A stretch of DNA of 64,000 bases from Sulfobacillus acidophilus DSM 10332 (lineage in GTDB: Bacteria; Bacillota; Sulfobacillia; Sulfobacillales; Sulfobacillaceae), in the NCBI GenBank assembly GCA_000237975.1, contig CP003179.1, positions 248,001 to 312,000 of the forward strand. Direction: 5' to 3'. Positions 12,878-55,612 of this stretch are shown piece by piece. A program made the position numbers and the translations under genes. Every line of letters begins with the position of its first letter. Position 1 is the first letter of the stretch. The notes below the pieces were generated by a model. That model had not been told where the DNA came from and did no database searches. It saw nothing but the letters and a program-made list of their open reading frames with translations.

Positions 12878-14423
<1,546 letters not shown>

Positions 14424-14471
14424 GGGAGCCGTGGCGGCATGATGATATGGTTTTGAGGGACCGGGCGTCGG

Positions 14472-14547
14472 GGGCCGATGGCGCAGGGGTTAGCGCACCC
14501 GCCTGATAAGCGGGAGGTCGGTGGTTCAAATCCACCTCGGCCCACCA
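14472..14547 (+). tRNA. tRNA-Ile (GAU), operon A spacer
   Basis: It has a full cloverleaf: acceptor GGGCCGA/TCGGCCC, anticodon stem CCCGC/GCGGG with GAU at 14505-14507, T-loop TTCAAAT, and encoded CCA. It lies in the 16S-23S spacer, the usual place. Confidence 0.97.
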
Positions 14548-14578
14548 TCACGACACCAGGACGTTGACAACTTCAGAG

Positions 14579-17494
<2,916 letters not shown>

Positions 17495-17528
17495 TCGGAA
17501 GTTGTGAACGCCCTGGTGGGCGGTAAGT

Positions 17529-18752: not shown

Positions 18753-18792
18753 CCATATCGTACATATTCGGCCTCGGAACTAGGCTTGACGC

Positions 18793-18820
18793 CACGCACA
18801 CGCACAGGGTGACTATTCGC
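18793..18820 (+). repeat. 28-bp direct repeat, unit 2
   Basis: This is the second copy of the unit at 18725-18752, with two substitutions. The repeat-spacer dimensions are CRISPR-like, but there are only two units and no cas gene in the window. Confidence 0.85.
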
Positions 18821-19094
18821 TCCGAGGCCATTCGGTATCCTTATTATAAGGGAGAATGTAAAAAGATATCCATTCACCGCAAACATTTTTTTGCGGCATC
18901 AGGATCATCGATTAGGCCCCCTACTCGCTCTACTGGGCCAACACCACCGCAATTTGGGCGGACGAGGACGACGTGTCAATGACGAGGCGAAAGCCCCAAA
19001 CCGCCGGAGCGGTTCCGGCATATGCCGTAGAGCTACCGGCCCGAACCCTATGCCATTCCATGGTTCAGGCGGTGTCCAGGCGCCGCGGCATCTT

Positions 19095-20725: not shown

Positions 20726-22271
<1,546 letters not shown>

Positions 22272-22319
22272 GGGAGCCGTGGCGGCATGATGATATGGTT
22301 TGGAGGGACCGGGCGTCGG

Positions 22320-22395
22320 GGGCCGATGGCGCAGGGGTTAGCGCACCCGCCTGATAAGCGGGAGGTCGGTGGTTCAAATCCACCTCGGCCCACCA
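22320..22395 (+). tRNA. tRNA-Ile (GAU), operon B spacer
   Basis: It is identical to the copy at 14472, with GAU anticodon and encoded CCA. The spacer differs by one base upstream. Confidence 0.97.
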
Positions 22396-22426
22396 TCACG
22401 ACACCAGGACGTTGACAACTTCAGAG

Positions 22427-25342
<2,916 letters not shown>

Positions 25343-25376
25343 TCGGAAGTTGTGAACGCCCTGGTGGGCGGTAAGT

Positions 25377-28078: not shown

Positions 28079-30550
28079 ATGTTTGGCCAATTTACCGAAA
28101 AAGCACGCCGTGTGGTGATTAATGCGCAAGATGAAGCGCGTCGCATGGGCCACAATTTTGTGGGTACGGAGCATCTCTTGTTAGGGTTGATTCGGGAAAG
28201 CAATTCTTTGCCGGCCAAGATTTTGCAATCGATCGGGCTCGATCTGGAAACCGTTCGCTCGGAAGTGCTGAAAGCGACGGGACGGGGTCCGGCCATTGGC
28301 CCCAACGAGGAAGTGGTATTTACCCCTCGGGCTAAAAAAGTCGTGTTGGAATTAGCCGGGGAAGAGGCGCGGGCACTAAACCAAAATTATATTGGGCCCG
28401 AACATTTATTACTGGGCTTGATTCGTGAAGGGGAAGGCGTTGCCGCCCAGGTGCTGCTGGCGGCGGGGGCGGATTTGAATAAGGTTCGCCATCAATTGAT
28501 TCAAGCAACCGGCAATACCGGCGGTAACAGTGGAGGGAATGAGCAACAGGCCCAGGTGAATACCCCGACGTTGGATCTATATGGCCGTGATTTAACCCAA
28601 ATGGCCCGGGAAGGAAAGTTGGATCCGGTCATCGGGCGGGACAAAGAAGCCGAACGGGTAATTCAAATCTTGAGTCGCCGGACGAAAAACAATCCGGTGT
28701 TGATTGGGGAGCCGGGTGTCGGGAAAACCGCCGTTGTCGAAGGGTTGGCGCAACGAATCGTCGAGAACAAGGTCCCGGAGATCCTTAAAGACCGCCGAGT
28801 GGTCGCTCTCGACTTGGGTGCGATGCTGGCCGGATCCAAATACCGGGGAGAATTTGAAGACCGCCTCAAGCGGGCCATGAACGAAATCCGGGAAGCCAAG
28901 AACGTGATTTTGTTCATCGATGAAATGCACACCATCGTGGGGGCAGGCGCCGCAGAGGGTGCGATAGACGCCGCGAACATTTTAAAACCGGCGTTGGCGC
29001 GTGGCGAATTGCAGGCCATCGGAGCCACCACGTTAGACGAATATCGCAAATATATCGAACGGGACCCGGCTTTGGAGCGGCGATTCCAACCGATTATGGT
29101 AGAGGAGCCTTCGGCGGAAGAGGCCGTCCAGATATTGAAAGGGCTTCGCGATCGCTATGAGGCACACCATCGGGTCAATATTACGGACGACGCCATTGAA
29201 GCGGCGGTTCACCTGTCCGATCGCTATGTGTCGGATCGCTTCTTACCGGATAAGGCGATTGACTTGATTGACGAGGCCGCCTCGCGGGTACGGTTGAAGA
29301 GTTATGTGGCTCCGCCGGATCTAAAAGATTTGGCGGATAAGCTGGAGGAAATCCGGAAAGAAAAAGAAGCCGCGGTTCAAGCCCAGGAATTCGAAAAAGC
29401 GGCCCAAATGCGTGACGAGGAACAAAAACTGCGCGAGGAACTGGAGCGCCAAACTCACGAGTGGCACAATCGGCAGCGCGTCGAGACGATTACGGTGACA
29501 CCGGACGATATTGCCCACATCGTGTCGTCCTGGACCGGTATTCCGGTTGAGCGGCTCGCCAGTGAGGAGTCGGAGCGTTTGCTCAATTTGGAAGAAGAAT
29601 TGCATCGACGGGTGGTGGGTCAAGAGGAGGCGGTGCGTGCCGTCAGTCGGGCGATTCGTCGCGCGCGTGCCGGGCTCAAGAATCCCCGTCGGCCGATCGG
29701 TTCCTTCTTGTTCCTGGGCCCGACCGGGGTCGGGAAGTCGGAACTGGCTAAAGCGCTGGCACAAGCATTATTCGGAGACGAAGATGCCATGATCACGATT
29801 GACATGTCCGAATACATGGAGCGGCATGCGGTATCTCGGCTTGTCGGAGCCCCTCCCGGCTATGTCGGGTACGAAGAGGGTGGCCAATTAACGGAAGCCG
29901 TGCGCCGTCATCCGTATTCGGTGGTGCTACTGGACGAAATCGAGAAAGCCCACCCGGAAGTCTTTAACATCTTGTTGCAGGTGTTGGAAGAAGGGCGTTT
30001 GACCGAAGCCAAGGGACGGGCGGTCGATTTCCGCAACACGGTCATTATCATGACGTCCAACGTGGGCGCCGAAGTGATTAAACGGCAGGCGACGATCGGT
30101 TTCCGAAAAGATACGGAAGAGACCGCTTATCGCGACATGAAGGACCGGTTAATGGACGAGGTCAAACACACCTTCCGGCCTGAATTCATTAACCGGGTAG
30201 ACGAGATCATCGTCTTCCACGAGCTGAGCGAAAAGCACTTGGCCGAGATAGTAGGAATTATGCTCAAAGAGGTCGAAGATCGGATCGGGCAAAACGGCTA
30301 TCGTTTGACCGTCAGCGATGCGGCTAAAGCGATCATCGCCAAAGAAGGGTTTGACCCGGTGTTCGGGGCCCGGCCGTTACGCCGTGCGATTCAGCATCTG
30401 GTGGAAGATGAATTGGCGGAACAGATTCTGGCCGGCAAGTTTGCCGAAGGTGCCCACATTTACGTGGACGCGGAGGACGGCAAGCTGGTGTTTCGGACGA
30501 TGACGGAACACGATAGCGCGATGGAATCCATTGCCCAAAAGGGGTCGTGA
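28079..30550 (+). CDS. clpC: ATP-dependent Clp protease ATPase subunit ClpC
   Basis: The 823-residue Hsp100 unfoldase has two N-terminal Clp repeats (about 5-70 and 80-145) that bind adaptors and phosphoarginine. NBD1 carries Walker A GEPGVGKT near 211 and the Walker B-type sequence [10 protein letters not shown] near 277. A coiled-coil middle domain with a UVR motif lies near 420-455, followed by NBD2 with GPTGVGKS near 547 and [15 protein letters not shown] near 618. It supplies substrates to ClpP. AGGGGGGGTTACCG precedes ATG 28079. The stop codon overlaps the GTG start of radA (GTGA), coupling the two genes. Confidence 0.97.
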
Positions 30551-31189
30551 AGACAATTCGTGAAAAGCGCCGCTATACCTGTCAGGTATGTGGAACGGGC
30601 AGCGTCCGATGGCTTGGACGTTGCCCGGGCTGCGGCGGGTATAGCACGATGGTAGAAGAAGTCGTGACCGAGGAAAAACGGACCGTTTTGAGCGAAAATC
30701 ACCCCAAACCGATGGCCGAAATCGAGGAAACCCGGATGACTCGGATTCCCACGGGATTGGCCGAAGTCGATCGGGTATTAGGCGGCGGGATTGTTCCCGG
30801 CGCATTCATGCTTTTGGGTGGGGATCCCGGGATCGGGAAATCGACGTTGTTGCTGCAAATTGCGGCCTTGGTCAGTCAGTCCGGCCCCGTGCTGTACGTC
30901 ACCGCCGAGGAGTCGGAAGCCCAAACCCGGATTCGGGCTGAGCGGTTAGGCTTGCCGATTGGCCAGGTCTATCTCATGGCAGAGGGCAACATCGATGCGA
31001 TTGTCGCCGCCTTGGAAGCCGAGCCGTGGCGCCTCGCGGTGGTGGATTCGCTGCAAACCGTCTATAACCCGCTACTCGAATCGGCGCCGGGGTCCGTTTC
31101 GCAAGTACGGGATGTCGCGGCACGCTTGATGCGCGTGGCCAAAAACGGGTGTCCGTTATTTTTGGTCGGCCATGTGAACAAAGAGGGGT
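30547..31189 (+). CDS. radA: DNA repair protein RadA, exon 1 (joined with 31978-32687)
   Basis: RadA is a RecA-like branch-migration ATPase of recombinational repair. Exon 1 encodes the C4 zinc finger ([20 protein letters not shown]), Walker [11 protein letters not shown] near residue 98, and the ATPase core up to [11 protein letters not shown]. Read on without splicing, the frame stops at 31209 after a few unrelated residues (MRPAA). Joining after T31189 to C31978 gives a 450-residue protein (1353 nt, in frame), the normal RadA length, and restores KEG-SLAGPRV, a conserved RadA segment. The GTG start overlaps the clpC stop. The interruption has the features of a group I intron. Confidence 0.9.
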
Positions 31190-31977
31190 CAATGCGGCCC
31201 GCAGCATGAGGTAACTGATGCTGAGGCACTGGGCTATATGCATGAAACACCGAAAGCGCCAAGCGCGAGAGCCCTTGGCGGCGGTCAATGTGCAGGAAAC
31301 CGGAGAGATTCGTGGATCCTCAGAGACAATACGCCCAGCTCCTGACGTTATGGGCTAAAGGCAGTAAAACCTTTCGCCGGTTTGACCAGTATCCGGAAGG
31401 CTTTCAGGCCGAATGGGATCTGTGGTGGCGCCTCGGGCGGCGGCTCGTCGAACGTCAATTCCACGTGTTGCCCATACCAGGCTTGCCGAAGCCGGTTTTG
31501 GCGGTCGCCTGGGCCAACTATCAGGTATTCTTGGCCGATAGGGACCTAAAAGATTGGCGGGGGCAATTGCCCGAAGCCTGGTGGGGGGATCGGCGGCCAA
31601 CCCCCGTATGGCGGGTGAATGCCCACGAAGCGACATTTTCGTTGACGTTTTTGATGCGGTGGGGTCAACGGGGATTTACCGCGTGGGAGAGGATTCGGCC
31701 GTCGGCATTGGCGGCTTCGGGCGAGGAAGAGACGATTGTTGCGGAATCTATCGGCGACGGCTTGACGATTTTAGGGGCGCTCATCCGTTATCCCCGACTT
31801 TTTTCCCATCTTCCCCCGTCCGCATGGGCTTGGGCCGGTCGCTTGGTTCGTCATCCCGGCACCTGGCACAAAGTATCCCAGGTACCGGATGGGTTGGCCA
31901 CGATTTCGGGCATGGCCTATGATCCGCTGACGGATAGCTGGTGTTGGTTAGGTCAGGATGAAGACAGTGTCCATAAG
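31190..31977 (+). mobile_element. Group I intron interrupting radA (788 bp)
   Basis: The 5' exon ends in U (31189) and the intron ends in G (31977), as group I introns do. P1: exon GGGU pairs with the guide GCCC at 31197-31200 (U-G at the site). P10: guide GCG at 31194-31196 pairs with exon 2 CGC. P2: 31202-31207/31218-31223. P3: CTGGGC 31229-31234 with GCCCAG 31333-31338. P4: TGCAT 31239-31243 with GTGCA 31290-31294. P5: ACCG 31249-31252 with CGGT 31282-31285, plus an inner 7-bp hairpin (31257-31263/31274-31280). P7: GAGACA 31323-31328 (one bulged A) with TGTCC 31968-31972. P8: TCCTGAC 31340-31346 with GTCAGGA 31952-31958. AAGACAGTGTCC (31961-31972) resembles the conserved S element. Only five bases follow P7, so no P9 hairpin is possible, which is unusual. 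An ORF fills the P8 loop. Confidence 0.85.
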
Positions 31978-31983
31978 CGCTAG
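31312..31983 (+). CDS. Unrecognised ORF inside the radA group I intron
   Basis: The frame is open through the intron and stops at TAG 31981-31983, four bases into exon 2. I chose GTG 31312 because GGAGAG lies just upstream; an ATG at 31288 lacks a ribosome site. The protein (223 residues) is rich in Trp and Arg (FQAEWDLWWRLGRRLVERQ near residue 32) and moderately acidic near the middle (GEEETIVAESIGDG). I see no LAGLIDADG, GIY-YIG, HNH or His-Cys motif, and cannot assign it to a homing endonuclease or maturase family. The position in L8 is typical for intron-encoded proteins, so such a role is inferred. It may instead be a decaying or new family. Confidence 0.6.
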   Translation: MDPQRQYAQLLTLWAKGSKTFRRFDQYPEGFQAEWDLWWRLGRRLVERQFHVLPIPGLPKPVLAVAWANYQVFLADRDLKDWRGQLPEAWWGDRRPTPVWRVNAHEATFSLTFLMRWGQRGFTAWERIRPSALAASGEEETIVAESIGDGLTILGALIRYPRLFSHLPPSAWAWAGRLVRHPGTWHKVSQVPDGLATISGMAYDPLTDSWCWLGQDEDSVHKR

Positions 31984-32687
31984 CAGGTCCGCGGGTGGTA
32001 GAGCATTTGGTGGATGTCGTGCTGATGTTCGAAGGGGACCGACATCATGTGTTCCGCCTCCTGCGGAGTATTAAAAACCGGTTTGGGGCCACCCATGAAA
32101 TGGGCCTTTTTGCCATGCAAGGCGAAGGGCTGGTGCCCGTGGAAGATCCGTCGCGTGCTTTATTGGAGGAACGCCCGGTCAATGCGCCCGGTTCGGTGGT
32201 CGTCGCGGCGTTAGAGGGCACGAGGCCCTTGATGGTGGAAGTGCAAGCGCTGTTAGTGCGGGCGTACGGCCCGCCGAGGCGGGTCGTTTCCGGGATGGAT
32301 CCCCATCGCGTGGGACTGGTTCTCGCCGTCATTGAACGGCATCTCGGGCTTCGTATATCGGAAATGGATGCCTATTTTAAGTTGACCGGAGGCGTTTCCG
32401 TTGACGATCCGGCGTTGGATTTGGGTATTATGGCCGCCGCGGTATCCAGTGTCACCGGGGTGGTGGTCCCGCCGGAATGGGTTCTTTTAGGGGAACTGGG
32501 ATTGACGGGTGAGGTACGTCGTGTGTCGCGAATGAACGAACGGTTACGTGAGGCCCAAAATTTGGGTTTTACGAAAGCGTTGGTACCGGGACGCGTGTCC
32601 GAAATTCAACCGGGATTAACCTTATACTCGGTAGAGCGCATTCAAGACGCCGCCGCCCGGTTGGGATTGGACAGTGAACGCGATTAA
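31978..32687 (+). CDS. radA: DNA repair protein RadA, exon 2
   Basis: This part continues RadA in frame after splicing: (S)LAGPRVVEHLVDVVLMFEGD, then the KNRFG motif (KNRFGATHEMGLF), unique to RadA and required for branch migration, and the C-terminal Lon-protease-like domain (SGMDPHRVGLVLAVIERHLGL, DPALDLGIMAAAVSS, LLGELGLTGEVRRVSR). No stop, frameshift or missing motif is visible, so the gene is functional only if the intron is removed. Translation from an internal GTG (31995) would make just the C-terminal domain, which is not expected to work alone. A terminator follows. Confidence 0.9.
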
Positions 32688-55432: not shown

Positions 55433-55612
55433 GATGAGTGAAGTCGGAGACCGGTCCCCCGGGGACAGGCCGAAGGAGCAACTGCCGCCTGCTGACGCGC
55501 GGCCAGGAATCTCTCAGGCTCACAGGACGGCTTTAGGACGCTCCTCTGGAAATGCCCGCAACCTGCGGAAGCCGATGGGGATCCAAAACTCTCAGGCAAA
55601 AAGACAGAGGCA
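55433..55612 (+). promoter_or_regulatory. Tandem glycine riboswitch
   Basis: Two aptamers follow each other. The first has GCCGAAGGAGCAACTGCC and AATCTCTCAGGCTCACAGGAC. The second has GCCGATGGGGATCC and AACTCTCAGGCAAAAAGACAG, closed by CCTCTG (55543-55548) with CAGAGG (55605-55610). These are the conserved glycine-aptamer cores. No terminator follows before sdaAA, so control may act on translation. Confidence 0.9.

Follow-up and report, generated by a model that had tools for sequence, protein, structure and literature searches.

An Insert in the radA Gene of Sulfobacillus acidophilus

We analyzed a stretch of 64,000 nucleotides of the Sulfobacillus acidophilus DSM 10332 genome (hereafter, the window), in which the DNA-repair gene radA of this acid-loving bacterium is divided by an insert with the features of a group I intron. 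The insert carries an open reading frame (ORF), and the features of the locus are as follows.

30547-31189, plus strand: radA exon 1, ending in AAAGAGGGGU (Lys-Glu-Gly-Ser, the Ser codon being split after base 1)
31190-31977, plus strand: group I intron, 788 nt, with omega-G at 31977 as its last nucleotide
31207-31209, plus strand: TGA stop in the exon 1 frame, 5′ of the ribozyme core
31312-31983, plus strand: intron ORF, 223 codons from GTG, terminated by a TAG in exon 2, beyond the 3′ splice site
31978-32687, plus strand: radA exon 2, beginning with CGCUAGCAGG

The radA reading runs as ...GHVNKEG(S) up to 31189 and continues as (S)LAGPRV from 31978, and the two halves match positions 3-227 and 233-453 of the Sms/RadA profile TIGR00416. 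This agrees with a first-pass annotation of the window, which had described a radA frame cut after KEG and resumed at SLAGPRV 788 bp on. Its claim that exact removal restores a 450-residue RadA was likewise borne out, as joining the two halves that fit the profile gives an uninterrupted RadA of some 450 residues. That annotation had also named an intact second radA, together with cDNA showing no splicing, as a finding that would speak against an intron; we searched the whole genome for one and found none, the remaining matches being of the Lon type. The ratio of nonsynonymous to synonymous substitution rates (dN/dS) of exon 2 was 0.01-0.09.

Of 28 genomes, 26 have the stop codon of the exon 1 frame at intron nt 18-20, where TAA, TAG and TGA all occur, and two have it at nt 33-35. 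In every case it precedes P3. The presence of such a stop in all 28 genomes rules out an intein. An IStron was rejected because no transposase is present; the ORF has no match in Pfam, NCBIfam or PHROGs, and thus none of the IS200/IS605 type.

RNA Structure and Covariation

The RNA elements of the insert are listed below, with replacements seen in relatives, including the cheY introns described later and G083, a genome of the same class that lies outside the order of S. acidophilus.

31186-31189, plus strand: P1, 5′ exon strand GGGU, paired with GCCC at 31197-31200 in 27 of 27 distinct sequences
31194-31200, plus strand: internal guide, GCG (P10, with 31978-31980) and GCCC (P1); GCG/CGC becomes UCG/CGA in another class
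31202-31223, plus strand: P2 hairpin with a GNAA loop; both-side changes in 6 of 9 pairs
31229-31234, plus strand: P3 5′ strand CUGGGC, with 31333-31338; 100% paired, two covarying pairs; CCGCUC/GAGCGG in cheY
31239-31243, plus strand: P4 5′ strand UGCAU, partner 31290-31294
31249-31286, plus strand: P5 domain with an inner GNRA-capped hairpin; covariation in 7 of 9 pairs
31290-31294, plus strand: P4 3′ strand GUGCA, partner 31239-31243
31295-31319, plus strand: P6 (GGA/UCC) and P6a, the latter weak in S. acidophilus DSM 10332; contains the ORF start codon
31302-31305, plus strand: Shine-Dalgarno-like GGAG of the intron ORF, within P6/P6a
31323-31328, plus strand: P7 5′ strand G[A]GACA with bulged A31324; GACA/UGUC here, GGCC/GGCC in G083
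31333-31338, plus strand: P3 3′ strand GCCCAG, partner 31229-31234
31340-31343, plus strand: P8 5′ strand UCCU, the ORF occupying the P8 loop; AGCC/GGCU in cheY
31955-31958, plus strand: P8 3′ strand AGGA, partner 31340-31343
31961-31972, plus strand: J8/7 AAGACA and P7 3′ strand UGUCC (31968-31972), conserved
31973-31977, plus strand: AUAAG tail, 5 nt to omega-G, too short for P9

Covariation was assessed in 27 distinct sequences of relatives, with 500 shuffles and slid pairing partners as controls. In P2-P6, 97.6% of the cells were paired, and 17 pairs were changed on both sides, a number equalled in none of the 500 shuffles; sliding the partners lowered the paired cells to 20-49%. P2, P3, P5 and P6 covary, the covarying pairs of P3 being U-A/C-G and G-C/A-U, while P4, P7, P8 and P10 differ between lineages by changes that keep pairing. 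P1 places a U-G wobble at the 5′ splice site in every distinct sequence. P7 (G[A]GACA with UGUCC) has a G-C pair beside the bulged A, and its swap to GGCC with GGCC in G083 fits the guanosine-binding site expected of group I introns. The core P3-P8 with its P3/P7 pseudoknot is thus present, as P3 covaries within the order and P7 and P8 are replaced by other pairing strands in G083 and cheY, respectively. J8/7 (AAGACA) resembles the canonical AAGAUA. P10, GCG/CGC here, becomes UCG/CGA in family f103 of another class, which supports the 3′ splice site, and is weaker in G083 (GUG opposite CGA); a terminal omega-G was found in 28 of 28 genomes.

The guide pairings proposed in the first-pass annotation, P1 between GGGU (31186-31189) and GCCC (31197-31200) and P10 between GCG (31194-31196) and CGC (31978-31980), were recovered, as were P2-P8, the bulged A in P7 and AAGACAGTGTCC, each where it had been placed. 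It had further reported that P9 is missing, and we found this in every radA copy whose 3′ end was read, the tail being 4-11 nt. In all 28 genomes, the tail after P7 is 4-7 nt long with G as its last nucleotide; in further radA and cheY introns its length is 4-11 nt. At the level of sequence comparison, the intron boundaries, the RNA core, the absence of P9 and the conserved stop are established.

Distribution and Inheritance of the Intron

A covariance model, R2, was built on P2-P3′ and used to search 154 genomes of the class. It found a single copy per genome in 33 of them, 32 in the order and the other in G083. The same radA site carries the insert in 32 of the 42 genomes of the order as well as in G083, and the intron also lies in radA at the identical site in family f103 (G252, G214 and G473). 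A family search showed that, in most genomes of the family, radA is split at the same profile position and relatives of the intron ORF are found there. Intron-bearing relatives include Sulfobacillus thermotolerans Kr1 and S. harzensis.

Two genomes, G039 and G040, contain an intact radA without the insert. This absence is precise, and both genomes cluster with the intron-bearing G037 and G038; it is most simply explained as a loss. These alleles supply the intron-less radA of related strains that the first-pass annotation had suggested for comparison. Together with the covariation and the stop codon, which is fixed in place while its codon changes, they uphold its reading of the insert as a group I intron; the intron itself stood, and its age, spread and ORF had been underestimated.

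The main clades of the radA tree largely recur in the ORF tree. By these trees, the intron has been inherited broadly along the RadA tree, with one precise absence. The placement of G083, G041, f2 and f103 is uncertain owing to long branches, because of which a transfer of the intron between the two classes is put forward as a possibility. Searches of viral contigs, phages and plasmids with a P7-motif pattern and with the ORF revealed no copy. A looser P7 pattern gave 57 viral stretches, none of which was a significant match to the model; one of these, L168, was inspected and proved to be an ordinary terminase-like coding sequence.

No radA match was obtained in eight genomes of the order, possibly owing to incompleteness in some of them, many of the genomes compared being draft metagenome-assembled genomes (MAGs). 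radA was not found in G001 and G002 (one genus), in G034, or in the MAGs G012, G015 and G026, several of which are more than 95% complete. The gene may have been lost in some lineages.

The Intron ORF and Its Predicted Protein

The ORF, which the first-pass annotation overlooked, sits in the P8 loop and has a ribosome site of its own inside P6. It starts with GTG or TTG, or with ATG in f103, and stops close to the 3′ splice site or past it; no stop interrupts the frame in any of the 28 genomes translated. The opening codons, which overlap P7, P3 and P8, do not vary in DNA sequence (a single codon for each of DPQR across 28 genomes), while several synonymous codons encode the invariant K, RR and R-H deeper in the ORF. 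Outside the RNA core, the ORF showed dN/dS of 0.10-0.34, indicating that the encoded protein is under purifying selection; an intron-encoded protein kept by selection is what would be expected of a group I maturase.

The ORF had no match among Pfam, NCBIfam, PHROGs or PDB sequences. AlphaFold models reached a predicted local distance difference test score of 87 for the window protein and 91 for the G252 protein, and their structural neighbors were mostly PD-(D/E)XK folds (Z-scores: Hjc, 7.4; VRR-NUC, 7.2; McrBC, 7.0; HindIII, 6.0; I-Ssp6803I, 5.5). A Foldseek search by itself returned no match at E 0.001. Mainly because the two models agree, the protein is likely to have a PD-(D/E)XK-like fold. 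Neither the catalytic D nor the (D/E)-X-K is conserved at the expected strands in alignments A1 or A5, and the three f103 proteins have a lone D64. The ancestor of the protein, to judge by these models, was probably a PD-(D/E)XK homing endonuclease.

Related Introns in cheY and a Phage-Like Gene

Two further introns were found in cheY, one of 174 nt in G214 with model R2 (L139, 1492-1665) and one of 162 nt in G252 with a broader model, R3 (L140, 1518-1679). Both have P1, P3-P8 and P10, and neither has an ORF or P9; the 162-nt intron lacks P2 as well. P10 of the G214 intron comprises 10 bp. Exon joining brings back the conserved CheY sequence FMRMMIKDIL. As a separate observation, the spliced cheY of G214 keeps an in-frame TAA in exon 2 (..CGEA*DGVQ..; L139), where G252 has GAA; a sequencing error, a pseudogene and something else are all candidate causes.

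A group I intron with a related core was located on the minus strand of G034 (L198, 900-1460), in a phage-like, weakly tail-fibre-like gene. Three hairpins follow its P7 as a P9-like series. Because of these hairpins, the P9-less lineage may descend from P9-bearing introns, perhaps from a phage.

Discussion

The best explanation of these data, and one we hold with high confidence, is that the radA insert is a P9-less group I intron whose ORF protein is a probable splicing helper. Splicing in the cell can be inferred with near certainty. In the proposed mechanism, the GGGU at the end of exon 1 would pair with the internal guide to form P1, with the U-G wobble marking the cleavage point; a guanosine bound by the P7 G-C pair next to the bulged A would attack 31189/31190, and the freed exon 1 would then attack after omega-G 31977 while P10 holds exon 2, yielding the continuous RadA. 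Ribosomes translating exon 1 would halt in P2 or just before P3 and leave the core free to fold; in-frame stops have been discussed as a possible means of letting introns fold (PMC3984707). In unspliced RNA, the second ribosome site in P6 would give the 223-residue protein. Translation and splicing may well be mutually exclusive, which we regard as somewhat favored. As to its history, a mobile intron with an endonuclease gene could have entered radA long ago and become fixed, after which P9 and the nuclease active site would have been lost with the protein still under selection, now for assisting splicing instead of cutting DNA. For the helper role taken by itself, the chances appear evenly balanced.

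Several observations weigh against this explanation. P9, usual in group I introns, is missing; as it lies outside the catalytic core P3-P8, we did not treat it as defining for the group. Inside the order, P4, P7 and P8 are nearly invariant, and the support for them there is one of compatibility. The structural matches all have Z-scores below 8, a range in which common arrangements can score. The helper role is argued from the conservation of a protein lacking catalytic residues, and the cheY introns without an ORF imply that a protein in cis is not always required. Rfam scans of the window, the insert, its relatives and the whole genome gave no match to the group I model RF00028, an outcome that the first-pass annotation had said would refute a group I intron. 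We read this instead as a gap in the model, because the cheY introns and the P9-bearing relative in the phage-like gene are missed too; the silence on the latter also makes it uninformative about P9.

A more tentative extension, which we consider possible though rather doubtful, is that the radA introns with the ORF and the cheY introns (162-174 nt) without it form a separate P9-less lineage, in which the catalytically dead PD-(D/E)XK protein took over from P9 in stabilizing its own intron and also, where a genome has both introns, the cheY intron in trans, thus constituting a new group I maturase fold. Compatible with the best explanation rather than exclusive of it, and somewhat unlikely, is a regulatory switch, in which ribosome entry in P6 unfolds the core and the balance between translation and splicing sets RadA output, which would explain the persistence of the intron across the order. 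The ribosome site and start codon inside P6 and the clean exon 1 stop ahead of the core are in line with such a switch; however, this is an argument from geometry, and the intron-less radA of G039 and G040 indicates that the intron is dispensable. It is improbable that the intron is still mobile, the ORF being an active, diverged homing endonuclease that repeatedly reinvades radA. Although the predicted I-Ssp6803I-like fold, the open ORF and the conserved site would suit this, the catalytic residues are not conserved at the expected strands, the ORF and RadA trees share clades in a pattern that is not scattered, and no copy was found in the viral contigs, phages and plasmids searched. That the insert no longer splices, leaving RadA in two pieces or not made, is very improbable: the lack of an Rfam match and the relatives without any radA match, which suggest that RadA can be dispensable, fit it, but exon 2 is strongly constrained by its dN/dS, and the covarying ribozyme, splice sites and P10 are all kept where decay would be expected.

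With the P9-less intron and its probable helper as the preferred explanation, comparison with known systems is instructive. The gene of I-Ssp6803I lies in a group I intron. The radA-intron protein is likewise intron-encoded and has a similar predicted fold (Z 5.5 over 89 residues), and it differs from I-Ssp6803I in lacking the catalytic residues, in having extra N-terminal helices and a C-terminal part, and in being conserved under vertical descent; the PDB entry of I-Ssp6803I (2ost) is titled 'a bacterial homing endonuclease'. Group I introns of bacterial protein genes are described in recA and nrdE of Bacillus and in flagellin of Geobacillus (PMC3984707). The radA intron shares with these the P1-P8 core, the U-G 5′ site, omega-G, the exon 1-frame stop and a chromosomal protein gene as host, and differs in having no P9, in being fixed in most of an order and in being missed by the Rfam model; radA and cheY were not found as hosts in the papers searched. 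As summarized in the same review (PMC3984707, citing Mo et al. 2011), the 23S intron of Thermotoga neapolitana encodes a LAGLIDADG maturase, which, to the extent described there, resembles the radA-intron protein as an intron-encoded helper of its own intron in a thermophile, the helper role here being the proposed one, and has an unrelated fold. Because of such LAGLIDADG precedents (PMC3984707), helping is the best-supported use of the retained protein, by extension to a PD-(D/E)XK-like fold. The trans-spliced rnl.1 group I intron of Prasinoderma was modelled without P9 and termed very unusual (PMC3873408); in contrast to that single mitochondrial case, in which a third piece is possibly missing, more than 30 continuous introns lack P9 here. 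IStrons (PMC4227781) also combine a group I intron with an internal ORF in Bacillota, whereas the radA intron has no transposase and no P7.1/P7.2 or P9.x, and occurs as a single copy at one site. The literature searched contained nothing relevant on group I introns of radA or of Sulfobacillus, a weak negative as this mostly excluded subscription papers.

Group I introns are commonly regarded as short-lived mobile guests, but the radA intron appears to be a long-term resident of a DNA-repair gene in almost the entire order. With cheY introns as short as 162 nt, the P9-less core probes the minimum RNA for a natural self-splicing intron, and the retained, apparently dead nuclease makes the long-standing question of how a homing endonuclease becomes a splicing helper testable in more than 30 bacterial species. 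A group I lineage missed by current RNA annotation also means that genome records may show radA and cheY as seemingly disrupted genes.

Other Features of the Window

Two rRNA operons (12878-17495 and 20726-25343), each with a tRNA between 16S and 23S, lie about 3 kb apart, and a DUF3800-IX RNA (18766-18829, minus strand, 41.4 bits) is located between them. Tandem glycine riboswitch aptamers were found at 55434-55610.
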